A stretch of DNA of 64,000 nt from Halomonas denitrificans (GTDB lineage Bacteria > Pseudomonadota > Gammaproteobacteria > Pseudomonadales > Halomonadaceae). Positions 2,963-59,203 of the stretch are shown here, in pieces. Made by a program: the position numbers and the translations under genes. The stretch lies in assembly GCF_003056305.1 (NCBI RefSeq), contig NZ_PYVX01000001.1:186001-250000 (forward strand), in the 5' to 3' direction. The notes under the pieces are model-generated. The model did no database searches. It was given only the letters and a program-made list of their open reading frames with translations, and was not told the origin of the DNA. The first letter of the stretch is position 1. Every line of letters begins with the position of its first letter.

Positions 2963-3039
2963 AGGGCTCTCCTCCATCGACGTACCCCATTGTGCCCCAC
3001 CCCCGAGCCGGGAGCTAACACCCTGATCCGGATGGGGTC

Positions 3040-3067
3040 TTGACCTGCGGATGAAAACTGGTAGAGT
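3040..3067 (+). promoter_or_regulatory. Candidate sigma-70 promoter of tRNA-Ser
   Basis: TTGACC at 3040-3045 and TAGAGT at 3062-3067 are separated by 16 bases. The mature tRNA begins 16 bases downstream of the -10, as expected for a short tRNA leader. Confidence 0.5.
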
Positions 3068-3082
3068 ACGCATCCGTAAGCC

Positions 3083-3173
3083 GGAGGGATGGCAGAGCGG
3101 TTGAATGCACCGGTCTTGAAAACCGGCGTAGGTTAATAGCCTACCCAGGGTTCGAATCCCTGTCCCTCCGCCA
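3083..3173 (+). tRNA. tRNA-Ser(UGA)
   Basis: A 91-base class II tRNA with encoded CCA. The acceptor stem GGAGGGA pairs with TCCCTCC at the 3' end. The anticodon stem CCGGT/ACCGG closes a 7-base loop with anticodon TGA at 3117-3119. The long variable arm (GTAGGTTAATAGCCTAC region) and the GGTTCGAATCC T-arm are clear. A strong terminator follows at once, so it is transcribed alone. Confidence 0.97.
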
Positions 3174-3183
3174 CCTTTTCAGA

Positions 3184-3217
3184 GAAAACCAGCCCACCGG
3201 GCTGGTTTTCTTGTTTT
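3184..3217 (+). terminator. Rho-independent terminator after tRNA-Ser
   Basis: A 12-bp perfect stem (GAAAACCAGCCC / GGGCTGGTTTTC) with a 3-base loop is followed by TTGTTTT. It lies 10 bases after the tRNA CCA end and is the clearest intrinsic terminator in the left part of the window. Confidence 0.88.
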
Positions 3218-3389
3218 AGTGCACGGACCATGCACCTGGTGGCTCACCGTCGATCGCGCCGCATGCGGGGGCGAAACCCGGGCCCCTCAGACGCTGTCCA
3301 CCCACCAGACGCCACCGGGCAACGCCCGCCGGCATCATCTAGCCGCCCTGCCCCGTAGGGCCGCGCCCCCAACAGAGGTCCATCTCGCC

Positions 3390-3944
3390 ATGGCACTGAA
3401 GGCAACGATACATCGGGTCCAGCTGCAGGTCGCCGACATGGACCGGCACTACTATGCCGATCACGCCTTGACCGTGGCGCAACACCCCTCGGAAACCGAT
3501 GAGCGGATGATGGTCAGGCTGCTCGCCTTCGCACTGAACGCCGACGAGGCCCTGGCCTTCGGGCGCGGCGTGAGCACCGAGGACGAGCCCGACCTGTGGC
3601 GCCGGGACCTCACCGGGAAGATCGAGCAGTGGATCCAGCTCGGCCAGCCCGACGAGAAGAGCATCCGGCGCGCCTGTGGCCGCGCCGACGAGGTCGTCAT
3701 CTACACCTACAGCGGCCATGGCGCGACGCTCTGGTGGGAATCGCTGGCCGGCAAGCTGGCGATCCTCGACAACCTGACCGTGGTTGCCATCGCGCCGGAG
3801 ACGGTGCAGGCGCTTGTCGGGATGGTGGCGAAGAGCATGGCCCTGAGCGCCACGCTCCAGGATGATACGGCGTGGGTGGCCGACGGCGCGCAGGCCGTCG
3901 AGGTCCCCCTCGAGGTGCTCAAGGCGGCGACCCGGCAGGCCTGA
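3390..3944 (+). CDS. yaeQ: YaeQ family protein
   Basis: This is a 184-residue YaeQ protein (E. coli about 181). The family has a compact fold related to PD-(D/E)XK nucleases, and overexpressed E. coli YaeQ suppresses loss of RfaH; its biochemical role is not settled. The start MALKATIHRVQLQVADMDRHYY and the internal LTGKIEQWIQLGQPDEKSIR and VVIYTYSG stretches are highly characteristic. I chose the ATG at 3390 because the family start matches there; an upstream extension to 3219 would run into the tRNA terminator region. It converges on nhaP2 with an 84-base gap. Confidence 0.92.
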   Translation: MALKATIHRVQLQVADMDRHYYADHALTVAQHPSETDERMMVRLLAFALNADEALAFGRGVSTEDEPDLWRRDLTGKIEQWIQLGQPDEKSIRRACGRADEVVIYTYSGHGATLWWESLAGKLAILDNLTVVAIAPETVQALVGMVAKSMALSATLQDDTAWVADGAQAVEVPLEVLKAATRQA

Positions 3945-4028
3945 GCGGCCGCACTCGTCCCTCCCAGCCGCACCCTCGCCCCCCAATGCATCCATCAGGC
4001 TGCTTTGATCAGAGGCGCCGCCTGGCGA

Positions 4029-55392: not shown

Positions 55393-56154
55393 ATGACCAC
55401 CCTGCTGATCTCCGACCTGCACCTGCAGCCCGCCACCTCCGAACTCACCGACGGCTTCCTGCGCTGGCTCGACGAACGTGCCTCCGGCGCCGAGGCCCTC
55501 TATATCCTCGGCGACTTCTTCGAGGCGTGGATCGGCGACGACCTGCTTGACCTCGGCGCCGGCGACCCGACCGGCACCGCCGAGCTGGCCGCCCGCGTCG
55601 CCGCCGCGCTGAAGCGCCTCGCCGAGGGCGGCACTGCCGTCTACCTGATGCACGGCAACCGCGACTTCCTGCTCGGCGAGCGCTTCGCGACCGCCGCCGG
55701 CGCCCGCCTGCTGCCGGACCCCAGCGTGGTGACCCTGGGCGACCGGCCGGTGCTGCTGATGCACGGCGACAGCCTCTGCACCCGGGACGAGGCCTACATG
55801 GCCTTCCGCCGCCAGGCCCGGGACCCGCAGTGGCAGGCACAGATCCTCGCCATGCCGATCGCCGAGCGGCTCCAGCTCGCGAAACAGCTGCGCGACCAGT
55901 CCGGGGAGGCCAACTCCAACAAGGCCGAGGACATCATGGATGTCACCCCCGAGGAGGTGGTCGCGGCGCTGCGCGACCACGGGGTCGATACCCTGATCCA
56001 TGGCCACACTCATCGCCCGGCGGCGCACGACCTCCAGGTCGACGGCACCCCGGCCAGGCGCCTGGTGCTGGGCGACTGGCAGCCGGACCAGGGCTGGGAG
56101 ATCGTCGTCGAGGACGGCACCGAGCCACGACTTCAGGCGTTCCCGCTCGCCTGA
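55393..56154 (+). CDS. lpxH: UDP-2,3-diacylglucosamine diphosphatase LpxH
   Basis: This is a 253-residue calcineurin-like metallophosphoesterase that makes lipid X from UDP-2,3-diacylglucosamine, the fourth step of lipid A synthesis, at the inner face of the membrane. Metal motifs are DLHLQP (DxH), GDFFEAWIGDD, HGNRDFLLG, the HGDSLCTRD block and HGHTHRPA. All ligands are present. The ppiB-lpxH order is common in gammaproteobacteria. Confidence 0.96.
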   Translation: MTTLLISDLHLQPATSELTDGFLRWLDERASGAEALYILGDFFEAWIGDDLLDLGAGDPTGTAELAARVAAALKRLAEGGTAVYLMHGNRDFLLGERFATAAGARLLPDPSVVTLGDRPVLLMHGDSLCTRDEAYMAFRRQARDPQWQAQILAMPIAERLQLAKQLRDQSGEANSNKAEDIMDVTPEEVVAALRDHGVDTLIHGHTHRPAAHDLQVDGTPARRLVLGDWQPDQGWEIVVEDGTEPRLQAFPLA

Positions 56155-56176: not shown

Positions 56177-57208
56177 TCACCCCCTGGCCCGGCACGCCTC
56201 GAGCATGACTTCCAGCGCTTCGGGGTCCGGCAGCCGCCCCGCCTCGCCGATCAGCTCCAGGCGGGAGTCGCGCCGCCAGGCGGTATCGCCGAGGCTGACC
56301 ACGCCCTCGGCCCGGTTGTAGAGCCGCCAGCCCTCGGTGGTATGCAGCACGCCCTTCACCCGGAGACCGGCGGGCAGCTCGCCGAGGCGCGCCGCGAGGC
56401 GATCCAGGTCGAAGCGCTCCGCGGCGTGCCAGCGCCAGCCCAGGCTCGCGTGCCCGAGCGACGCCCCCTCCTCGCGGACCGGCCGACCGGGGGCCGGCTC
56501 ACGCTCGATCGCGGCCGGCGCTGCCGGCGGGTGGCGCGCCTCGTCCCGCGCCGCCCGATGCGGCGCCGGGGCGGATCCCCCGCCGCCATCGGCGTGGCGC
56601 CCGCCCGCCGCCAGCAGCGCGAGCGGCAGGTCGCCATGGGGCGCCTCGCGAATCCAGCGCTTCGCCGGCCAGAGCGCGCCGAGCCACTCCCTCGCCGCCT
56701 GGACCTGTTCGGGTGTGGCCAGGTCGGTCATGGTCAGCGCCACGCCGTCGGCCATGACCAGCTGATCGCGAAAGGTCTCGTGCGACCGGGCGCGCGGATC
56801 ATCCAGCCGGCGCGGGTCGAGCAGCGCGATCACGTCGTGCACCGCCAGCGCCTCGCCCAGCCCCTCGCCGCGCAGCATCTCAATGAGGCCGGCCGGATGG
56901 CCGAGCCCCGAGGGCTCGATGATCAGCCGGTCCGGGCGATGGCGATGCAGCAGGTTCACCAGCGAGGCCTGAAGCACGAAGGCCAGCTGGCAGCAAAGGC
57001 AGCCCCCGGGCAGCCCCTTGACCACCAGGTCGTCACGCGCCTCGAACATCGCCTGGTCGATGCCCACCCGGCCGAACTCGTTGATCACCACGGCCCAGCG
57101 CTCGTCGTCGGGCTTCTGGTCGATCAGGCGCCGGATCAGCGAACTCTTGCCGCTGCCCAGAAAACCGGTGATCAGGTGGACGGGAATGGCGGAGAGGGGT
57201 GCGGGCAT
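56177..57208 (-). CDS. COG0523/CobW-family GTPase, candidate zinc metallochaperone
   Basis: This is a 343-residue G3E-family P-loop protein. Walker A is GFLGSGKSS (15-23), the metal-binding GCLCC is at 69-73 and the Mg2+ region IIEPSGLGHP follows. A His/Pro/Arg-rich linker (about 198-235) joins the CobW C-terminal domain. The expected NKxD guanine-specificity motif reads TMTD at 159-162, so base recognition may be altered. A Zur-like box lies 28 bases upstream, so it is probably made when zinc is scarce and delivers zinc to a client enzyme (YeiR/ZigA-like). Single gene. Confidence 0.85.
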   Translation of the reverse strand: MPAPLSAIPVHLITGFLGSGKSSLIRRLIDQKPDDERWAVVINEFGRVGIDQAMFEARDDLVVKGLPGGCLCCQLAFVLQASLVNLLHRHRPDRLIIEPSGLGHPAGLIEMLRGEGLGEALAVHDVIALLDPRRLDDPRARSHETFRDQLVMADGVALTMTDLATPEQVQAAREWLGALWPAKRWIREAPHGDLPLALLAAGGRHADGGGGSAPAPHRAARDEARHPPAAPAAIEREPAPGRPVREEGASLGHASLGWRWHAAERFDLDRLAARLGELPAGLRVKGVLHTTEGWRLYNRAEGVVSLGDTAWRRDSRLELIGEAGRLPDPEALEVMLEACRARG

Positions 57209-57232
57209 GGTAACTCCAGGCGGGCATGGCGG

Positions 57233-57253
57233 TATTGTTACAACATAACATTT
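57233..57253. promoter_or_regulatory. Zur-type operator upstream of the CobW-family gene
   Basis: TGTTA-CAACA-TAACA at 57236-57250 is a perfect inverted repeat with the same 15-base geometry as the core of the gammaproteobacterial Zur box (TGTTA-N5-TAACA), with an extra A/T pair one step further out. It is centred 35 bases before the CobW-family start in an otherwise GC-rich region. Confidence 0.72.
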
Positions 57254-57309
57254 TAGGTTCGGGCCGGCACCCGCTCGAGGGTAAGCCCTCCGCCCCTCTT
57301 CGCCCCATC

Positions 57310-57340
57310 AAAAAACCCCTGCGGGCGTGAGCCCGCAGGG
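57310..57340 (-). terminator. Rho-independent terminator after ppiD
   Basis: On the minus strand a perfect 10-bp stem (CCCTGCGGGC / GCCCGCAGGG) with a 4-base loop is followed by G and six T. A textbook intrinsic terminator. Confidence 0.9.
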
Positions 57341-57379
57341 ATCGTCGTGGTCGCGCGACGCAGCATCCGCGCCGATCGC

Positions 57380-59203
57380 TCAGAGCCGCTCGATGTTCGC
57401 CTTCTCGCGAAGGTCCTCGAGCAGGCCCTGGATGGCGGCCTGGGCCCGCAGGCGCTCGGCCATGTTGGCGACGAAGGCCTCCATCTGGGCGTTGGGCTCG
57501 CCGTCCTGGACGCGCTCCAGGGCGATCAGCACCACGCGCTCGCCGTCCACGGCGTGGCCGTAGACCGGCTGCTCGCCCTCGGGGTGCGGCAGGCGGAAGG
57601 CAGCCTGCACCAGCGCCTCGGAGAGCGTGCTGCCGGTCTGGCGGCTGACCGACTCGGCCTGCTGCCAGTCGATGTCGAGCGTCTCGCCCGCCCGCAGGCT
57701 CTCGACGCGCTGGGCCGCGAGCTCGACCAGCGCCTCGCGGGTCTTGGCCTCGAGCACGGCGGCCTCGACCTGGCCGCGCACCTCGGAGAGCGGCAGCGTG
57801 GTGGCCTCGCGATGCTCGGCCACGCGCAGCACCAGGCGGCGATCCTCGTCGAGCTCGATCACCTCGCTGTTGTAGCCGTTCTCCAGCACGTCATCGCTGA
57901 AGGCCTGCGCCATCACGCCGGGCTCGGAGAGCACGCCCTCGTCGACATCGCGACCGACCCAGTCGCTCTGCTGCAGGGTCAGGCCCAGGTCATCGGCCAC
58001 GCTTGCCAGGTCGTCGGCGGCGAAGCTGTCATCGATCAGGCGCTGGGCACGCTCGTTGAAGGCGTCGTCGACCTGCTCGAGGGCCAGCTCGGCGCGCAGC
58101 GCCTCGCGGCGCTCCTCGAAGGCGGGGCGATCGAGCTCGGTGACCTTGATCAGGTGCAGGCCGTTGTCGGTCTCGACGATCCCGGAGACCTCTCCCTCGC
58201 CGAGGGCGAAGGCGGCGTCCTCGAAGGCCTCGCCGAAGAAACCGCGGGAGATGACGCCGAGATCCCCGCCGGCATCGCTGGTCGAGGTGTCGTCGGAGAC
58301 CTCGGCGGCCAGCTCGGCGAACGCCTCGCCCTCGGCGAGACGCGCCTGGACCTGCTCGAGACGCGCCCGGGCCTCCTCGCGGCTGCCGTCGTCGTCGCCG
58401 ACGGCGACCATGATGTGCGAGATGCGACGGTCGGCCTCGGCCGCCCCGGCCTCCCAGGCCTCGCGCAGCGCCTCCTCGCTCACCTCGGCCTCGTCGGCCA
58501 TCTGCTGGCGATCGAGCACCACGTAGTTGACCTGCACCTGCTCGGGGCGGCGGAAGTCGTCCCGGTGGGCGTCGTAGTAGGCCTGGAGGTCCTGCTCGGT
58601 GATCTCGGGCGTGGCCGCGAGGTCGTCCGGCGTCAGGGCGTGGTGGCGGAAGCTGCGGGTCTGGCGCTGCAGTTCGGCGAGGCGCTCCCGCTCCTCCTCC
58701 AGGGTGAAGGTGCTGACGGCCAGGCCCTGCTGCACCTGCTGGCGCTTGAGATCGACGGCGAGCTGCCGGCGGAAGGACAGCGGCGTGAAGCCGGCGCTGG
58801 CCAGGCGATTGCGGAACAGCTCGCGGTCGAAGCGCCCCTGGGCGTCCTGGAACTCCGGCAGGGTGACGATCAGCTGATCGAGCTGCTGCTCGGAGACGTA
58901 GAGGCCTCCCTCCTCGGCGTACTGGGTCAGCAGCCGCTCGGTGATCAGCATGTCGAGCATCTCGGCGCGCAGGGCGCGCTCCTGGTCCGGCGGCACCTGG
59001 CCGCTGCGGATGGCGCGCTGCACCTCGATCTCGAGCTGCTGGCGGGTGATCGGCTCATCGTTGACCTGGGCGACCTCATCGCCGCTGTTGCCCAGCAGCC
59101 CGACCAGCGATTCCACGCCGAACAGCGCCATGGTGACGACCACGGCACCGATGATGATCTTGGCGCCCCAGCTCCTGGAGCGGTCACGAATACTTTGCAG
59201 CAT
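57380..59203 (-). CDS. ppiD: Periplasmic chaperone / peptidyl-prolyl isomerase PpiD
   Basis: This is a 607-residue inner-membrane-anchored chaperone at the Sec translocon. One N-terminal helix (about 15-37) anchors the protein. A SurA_N-like domain follows (about 38-200), then one parvulin domain (about 265-360) with RRISHIMVAV, GDLGVISRGFFGEAFEDAAFAL and GLHLIKVTELD. The long acidic C-terminal part is rich in Glu and Asp, as in halophile secreted proteins. It lies downstream of hupB, as in E. coli (lon-hupB-ppiD). Confidence 0.95.
   Translation of the reverse strand: MLQSIRDRSRSWGAKIIIGAVVVTMALFGVESLVGLLGNSGDEVAQVNDEPITRQQLEIEVQRAIRSGQVPPDQERALRAEMLDMLITERLLTQYAEEGGLYVSEQQLDQLIVTLPEFQDAQGRFDRELFRNRLASAGFTPLSFRRQLAVDLKRQQVQQGLAVSTFTLEEERERLAELQRQTRSFRHHALTPDDLAATPEITEQDLQAYYDAHRDDFRRPEQVQVNYVVLDRQQMADEAEVSEEALREAWEAGAAEADRRISHIMVAVGDDDGSREEARARLEQVQARLAEGEAFAELAAEVSDDTSTSDAGGDLGVISRGFFGEAFEDAAFALGEGEVSGIVETDNGLHLIKVTELDRPAFEERREALRAELALEQVDDAFNERAQRLIDDSFAADDLASVADDLGLTLQQSDWVGRDVDEGVLSEPGVMAQAFSDDVLENGYNSEVIELDEDRRLVLRVAEHREATTLPLSEVRGQVEAAVLEAKTREALVELAAQRVESLRAGETLDIDWQQAESVSRQTGSTLSEALVQAAFRLPHPEGEQPVYGHAVDGERVVLIALERVQDGEPNAQMEAFVANMAERLRAQAAIQGLLEDLREKANIERL

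Follow-up and report, generated by a model that had tools for sequence, protein, structure and literature searches.

A probable Zur operator before a YeiR-like COG0523 gene in Halomonas denitrificans, and its changing setting among relatives

Does the short palindrome just before a COG0523 (G3E) GTPase gene of Halomonas denitrificans place that gene under the zinc regulator Zur, and what would such a gene do? We consider this question for a 64-kb stretch of DNA (the window, 64,000 nucleotides in full), taken from a genome of 3.76 Mb in 13 contigs; the nearest named relatives of the COG0523 protein belong to Halomonas (H. urmiana, 86% identity). The explanation that we prefer, and regard as highly probable on comparative sequence evidence, is that the palindrome is a Zur operator and the gene a zinc-starvation gene, which would very probably be switched on when zinc runs short. 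The half of this mechanism that concerns regulation by Zn-Zur appears strongly supported by the comparisons below, while the biochemical half is taken by analogy from E. coli YeiR; Zur binding, repression, zinc specificity and delivery to clients are steps that we infer. The features of the locus are as follows.

55393..56154, plus strand: LpxH-type gene, downstream and convergent (name from sequence reading, not profile)
56177..57208, minus strand: COG0523 (G3E) GTPase gene, YeiR-like, 343 aa, with P-loop GFLGSGKS, CxCC and a CobW_C domain
57209..57379, minus strand: intergenic region between ppiD and the COG0523 gene, 171 bp, holding the terminator, the box and a Shine-Dalgarno-like GGAG
57236..57250, minus strand: predicted Zur-type operator, TGTTATGTTGTAACA on the minus strand and TGTTACAACATAACA on the plus strand, the best position weight matrix (PWM) site of the window
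57233..57253: extended box of 21 bp, made of the 57236-57250 core and 3 bases on each side; the top PWM match of the window starts at 57233
57314..57343, minus strand: intrinsic-terminator-like stem-loop, 13 pairs with a T tail, which would end the upstream transcript
57380..59203, minus strand: PpiD-type peptidyl-prolyl isomerase gene, upstream (name from sequence reading, not profile)

The earlier note on this DNA had described TGTTA-CAACA-TAACA as a perfect inverted repeat with the geometry of a Zur box, and both parts of that description stand. The arms TGTTA and TAACA pair perfectly, 5 bp on each side of a 5-base spacer. The repeat stops there: the bases at the two ends of the spacer do not pair, and neither do those just outside the arms. 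A search of the window with TGTTATAACATAACA, allowing up to 3 mismatches, finds the box as its sole match; in dinucleotide shuffles the mean is 0.02 matches, with a match in 2 of 100. Compared with the published 23-bp proteobacterial Zur consensus, GAAATGTTATA-N-TATAACATTTC (as given in the available part of PMC4219657), the box agrees at 18 of 23 places, counting the central N as a match, against 14 for the next-best place in the window. A PWM built from the boxes of 50 relatives, with the window excluded, gives the box 33.6 and the runner-up site in the window 4.3, and the maximum over a null of 1620 shuffled 300-bp upstream stretches is 13.5. The RNNNY element described in the available part of PMC4219657 was set aside as being of no use for judging the box: its two-dimer form occurs in 0 of 51 boxes cut to 21 bp, and its one-dimer form is uninformative since 45% of random 21-mers with a matching base composition contain it.

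The core of the box stops 27 bp short of the COG0523 start codon, an ATG. The location proposed for it, at the site of RNA polymerase, seems plausible by position only, as no promoter-like pair near the box passed the threshold of a sigma-70 scan over 57000-57500. Since the stem-loop at 57314-57343 is predicted to end the transcript coming from the ppiD side, the COG0523 gene should need a promoter of its own, and this stem-loop together with the convergent LpxH-type gene means that the gene should be, and from its layout appears to be, monocistronic.

That the gene behind the box encodes a COG0523 GTPase, as had been claimed, is borne out by Pfam, with PF02492 (cobW) at 135.5 bits against a cut-off of 20.7 and PF07683 (CobW_C) at 32.7 bits against a cut-off of 22. 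Two narrower identities were rejected, namely CobW (TIGR02475, 104.9 bits against an equivalog cut-off of 332.1) and ZigA (NF038288), with which the protein shares the COG0523 family and the proposed zinc-starvation role, but only 49.3 bits against an equivalog cut-off of 600. Of the two E. coli proteins compared, YeiR is closer (114 of 320 positions, 36% identity over 320 aa) than YjiA (29.5% identity over 295 aligned positions). YjiA (PDB 1nij, 4ixm, 4ixn) shares the G3E GTPase domain by sequence, and its entries are the only PDB sequence relatives at E 0.001 (1nij at E 2.4e-20), although the phmmer match is limited to residues 7-199. With YeiR, a zinc-binding GTPase, the window protein has in common the domain order, CxCC, EP(S/T)GLGHP and RVKGVL. 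It is best read as a YeiR-like, putative zinc metallochaperone that would be repressed by Zur. The available part of PMC10763504 reports that cells resist EDTA when YeiR expression is raised and are sensitive to it when the gene is deleted; E. coli yeiR is not described as Zur-controlled in that part of the paper, unlike what we propose for the Halomonas gene.

The putative metal motif CxCC, which reads GGCLCCQ in the window protein, is kept in all 93 family rows (56 with the box and 37 without). The guanine-specificity (G4) motif NKxD is not found in its canonical form: it reads TMTD here, against NKSD in YeiR, and is also non-canonical in YjiA (TKTD). In the family as a whole the lysine of this motif is replaced, mostly by methionine, in 77 of 81 members and kept in 4 (5 of the 81 were read by eye), while the 12 outgroup proteins, read by eye, have NKxD in 10 cases and the lysine in all 12. 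The form TMTD makes GTP less certain as the nucleotide, and because the position varies within the family it lowers the claim of GTP specificity and not that of COG0523 membership.

To what extent does the rest of the genome (G000) look like a Zur regulon? A genome search with the COG0523 protein matched this gene only; PF02492 has six matches, of which the two that follow this gene have neighbourhoods pointing to UreG and HypB and the other three are weak. The zinc-starvation candidate is thus the COG0523 protein of the window, the only such protein that turned up in the genome. For motif sites we searched the genome with IUPAC patterns and applied the PWM to the window and nine further stretches, scoring all four sites with at most 2 mismatches but few of those with 3. 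The exact core GTTAYNNNRTAAC occurs 3 times in the genome, against once for the reversed control, and the two occurrences besides the box are at C12:107448 and C1:1074315. High PWM scores belong to two of the exact cores, 33.6 for the box of the COG0523 gene and 28.0 for the site on contig C12; because the PWM covered the window and nine stretches instead of the full genome, the statement that there are two strong sites rests on the patterns.

The motif on contig C12 (107446-107462) precedes an ABC operon made of a small ORF, an ATPase, a permease and a binding protein. The best NCBIfam models for the last three are AztA (188 bits), AztB (256) and AztC (267), all under the equivalog cut-offs of 220, 280 and 350, so that the operon resembles AztABC and departs from it in its sub-cut-off scores, in the LolD-type ATPase that reads from the gene after the binding protein, and in the small His-rich first ORF. 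A PF01297 search of the genome finds two binding proteins, that of the C12 operon and one at C1:890514, whose operon is manganese-type by reading and adjoins a DtxR-type regulator; the same search found no classic znuABC. The AztABC-like operon is thus the sole candidate in this genome, on sequence grounds, for a zinc ABC importer of the PF01297 binding-protein family. The zur gene (C1:112342-112698; PF01475 at 57.9 bits; best NCBIfam model Zur at 139 bits, below the cut-off of 167) has no box, the best PWM score in its 15-kb stretch being 1.2.

The earlier note had pictured a lone gene away from znuABC, had suggested looking for the same motif at znuABC and zur, and had named the lack of a similar motif before znu genes as one finding that would count against it. 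The zinc transporter genes do lie on another contig, but the importer is AztABC-like and not ZnuABC; the motif is found before this only candidate zinc ABC importer operon, but not before zur. Membership of the gene in a Zur regulon, the broader claim, is supported by the comparisons across genomes that follow.

The first gene behind the C12 box is a 49-codon ORF (L027 6491-6640) whose N-terminus is rich in His (MAHRHHRHRPEGPCHF...); it includes a hydrophobic stretch, overlaps the ATPase gene and has a counterpart in L113, there preceded by an extra permease gene.

Three weaker sites of the window genome were set aside as Zur sites. The exact core at C1:1074315 (PWM 15.1, against 33.6 and 28.0 for the two strong sites and 13.5 for the largest shuffled score) precedes a photolyase-related gene (PF04244) and probably belongs to another regulator. 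There, at C1:1074315-1074327 (L031 6316-6328), a perfect GTTATACTATAAC lies between a gene that reads as hemH-like and the PF04244 gene, beside TTGTACAA, and it is perhaps the site of a light or stress regulator rather than of Zur. The site at C6:697597 (PWM 14.6) lies between genes reading as thioredoxin- and CysB-type, and that at C10:155698 (PWM 4.9) is inside a ribosomal-protein gene.

On the scale of the genus, 61 genomes (that of the window included) hold 78 copies of TGTTAYNNNRTAACA, against 5 of its reversed control, and 43 of the 61 have the motif at least once. We inspected 42 of the 78 sites; among the other 36, 16 belong to this gene or its orthologue and were left out, and 20 are outside the count. 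A reference gene starts no more than 350 bp from 37 of those inspected, and 5 are near no known zinc gene. The reference genes, identified by Pfam for FolE2, DksA and BtuF-like and by BLAST similarity for the others, are znuA/znuC (11 sites), an azt-like permease (5), other COG0523 genes (10), the orthologue of the present gene (4), FolE2 (3), a DksA-type gene (1) and BtuF-like genes (3), although the references for FolE2, DksA, BtuF-like, classic ZnuA/ZnuC and two of the COG0523 genes were drawn from these same loci, so that those sites count themselves. One of the 10 sites at other COG0523 genes (L125) is assigned at 25% identity only, and three of them also have a DksA-type gene opposite. 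With the BtuF-like genes left out, 34 of 42 sites are at zinc-type genes, 30 of them not this orthologue.

Boxes recognised by Fur-family regulators are alike, and it is important to consider whether the box is bound by another protein of that family (Fur, Mur) or by some other dimeric regulator. The genome does hold a second FUR-family gene (C7:59938), whose match of 151 bits is stronger than that of the zur gene. The company that the motif keeps speaks against such a protein, as seen in the 34 zinc-type sites out of 42, and so does the 12-kb stretch of the manganese-type ZnuA-type operon at C1:890514, which is boxless with a best PWM score of -4.4. We therefore regard another regulator as very unlikely and retain Zur as the protein that would bind the box.

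In five loci (L104, L119, L137, L220 and L226) the motif precedes the gene for a BtuF-like periplasmic binding protein, and in L104, L119 and L137 the neighbour of this gene reads as magnesium/cobaltochelatase-type. The BtuF-like protein is possibly a further metal-uptake member of the Zur regulon, and is not established as a zinc gene.

We then turn to the box itself before orthologues of the window gene, using two sets of loci. The first contains the best 80 of 123 relatives together with the window (81 loci). The second is a less selected, same-genus sample of 36 relatives besides the window genome, in 29 of which an orthologue is present (5 have no match and 2 a weak one only); 15 of the 29 duplicate the first set. 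Duplicates were removed by exact match over 300 bp, so near-identical strains remain among the 95 loci that result. The box is found in 57 of these 95, with the exact core in 54 and a near form in 3 (PWM 18-22), and is absent in 38. In the set of 81, the exact GTTAN5TAAC lies upstream in 51 loci and a near-box in 3; the distance from the end of the 21-bp box to the aligned start is 8-40 bp in 47 of the 51 exact cases and 49-93 bp in the other 4. The box precedes 17 of the 29 orthologues of the same-genus sample, whose 14 new loci divide into 3 with the box and 11 without. In 54 of the 81 loci a ppiD homologue precedes the gene in the same orientation, 1.4-1.6 kb away in 6 of these. The arrangement of ppiD upstream followed by a gap carries the box in 50 of 51 loci of this set of 81, whose relatives are the best 80 of 123 (6 of the 51 with 1.4-1.6 kb between), and the 14 same-genus loci added 10 that have ppiD and the gap but no box.

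Could the palindrome have arisen by chance and have no function? Its arms are only 5 bp long, and one of the three exact cores in the genome is the one before the photolyase-related gene, which is probably something else. Against this, the corresponding place is occupied in 57 of 95 loci, while the intergenic sequence around the box has otherwise diverged among relatives, and no shuffled upstream sequence scored above 13.5 where the box scores 33.6. We give the idea of a chance palindrome hardly any credence.

The operator reading then suggests the following course of events. With ample zinc in the cell, Zn-loaded Zur, whose gene lies elsewhere in the genome, would bind the box just before the start codon and block the single-gene COG0523 unit, and likewise the AztABC-like operon on another contig. 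As zinc falls, Zur would leave the DNA and the YeiR-like GTPase would be made; it may then bind zinc at its CxCC motif and, through a nucleotide-dependent cycle, hand the metal to priority clients.

A Zur box before a COG0523 gene is a known kind of arrangement: in the available part of PMC2770081, 68 Zur-regulated COG0523 genes are counted, 75% of them in subfamily 1. Like the Zur-regulated genes of that survey (yciC/zagA type and other subfamilies), the window gene lies directly behind the box and encodes a product with CxCC and the P-loop, and the box also marks the importer of its genome; unlike most of them, which fall in subfamily 1, the window protein is YeiR-like. The main text of PMC2770081 contains none of the words Halomonas, Chromohalobacter, molybdenum or moaA. 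Our literature search, as far as its sources were available, returned no description of a Halomonas Zur regulon; zur appears only in a gene table of Halomonas sp. H5, and a mention of a regulon in a Halomonas-related match concerns Cupriavidus in the portion available. The present analysis gives the outline of a compact predicted Zur regulon in a group for which this search returned none.

The evolutionary side story, which is mildly interesting, lies in the loci where the box is absent. The four loci with the COG0523 gene directly against ppiD or overlapping it (L150, L154, L176, L061) all lack it. So do 11 loci with ppiD upstream and a gap, namely L146, a clade of eight (L053-L060), L062 and L063, and 2 loci with other settings (L181, L186); H. 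daqiaonensis, one of the five nearest relatives, is among the boxless loci. The genomes of the L053-L060 clade have the exact motif somewhere in 6 of 8 cases (none in G021 and G024), its setting at the sites inspected being znu genes (G014, G016, G018, G023), an amidase (G022) or a BtuF-like gene (G026).

The remaining boxless state is found in 21 of the 81 loci, of Vreelandella type, in which the orthologue comes last in an operon mobA-moeA-moaA-COG0523. In the exemplar (L197 1036-4999, profile-supported) moaA and the COG0523 gene are 3 bases apart; the locus L214 starts within moeA, so mobA is not seen there. The motif is present in all 12 of the moaA-type genomes searched (of 21), with 26 sites against 4 for the reversed control; 5 of 18 sites inspected precede a reference gene (znu/azt-type 3, BtuF-like 2) and the other 13 do not, which makes the motif less diagnostic in these genomes. 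Our search found no literature that joins COG0523, the molybdenum cofactor and moaA.

We relate these states on a midpoint-rooted tree of 94 of the 95 loci (L064 left out). Rooting with YeiR is impractical (branch length 9.6), so the direction of loss or gain of the box is read from the midpoint tree only. The presence of the box requires 7 changes, the four ppiD-abutting rows require 4, and the 21 moaA rows form one clade (SH-aLRT 99%, and 92% in a smaller tree).

These loci bear on a different account of the gene, in which Zur controls the gene through the box, yet the GTPase matures a single enzyme or pathway that is important at low zinc, and was recruited to molybdenum-cofactor synthesis in Vreelandella. 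The operon position in a single boxless clade speaks for such a role, and in the window genome moaA lies elsewhere (C1:341491) with no COG0523 gene beside it. Yet chance relocation can also yield an operon position, the moaA clade is a single event, and the family is otherwise mostly tied to Zur boxes or to ppiD. The outgroup, 12 loci from other families of the order, also counts against this account, its COG0523 genes lying beside zur/merC or without a clear link and, by reading, in 0 of 12 cases beside moaA. In two other families (L247 and L255), a FUR-family gene and merC are directly upstream of the related COG0523 gene, and in L248 a gene reading as zur is some distance upstream. We consider this account rather unlikely next to that of a zinc-allocating GTPase under Zur.

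The clade-wise rewiring, together with the degenerate NKxD, suggests a nucleotide-relaxed metallochaperone with a changed client or regulation. In full, one YeiR-like metallochaperone may have changed its wiring inside a single family: most Halomonas-type genomes would have it under Zur and with a promoter of its own, four loci have it boxless and directly behind ppiD, and Vreelandella has it as the last gene of the molybdenum-cofactor operon, where it could have a role in the maturation of a molybdenum-cofactor enzyme. As a whole we hold this to be doubtful, and offer it tentatively. The three states (Zur box, ppiD-abutting, molybdenum-cofactor operon) provide natural pairs for asking what COG0523 proteins do.

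Two further sites were observed outside the set of orthologues. Among the outgroup loci, 11 of 12 have no box, with best scores below zero, while in L246 (COG0523 gene at 3021-4016) a box-like site, AAACGTTATATTGTAACAAAC, lies shortly before the start with a score of 22.7, obtained with a flat background and no null. In L118, at 3024, a Zur-like box (TGTTATCTTATAACA) stands before a gene for an N-acetylmuramoyl-L-alanine amidase (Amidase_3 + AMIN), which is possibly a zinc-enzyme member of the Zur regulon.
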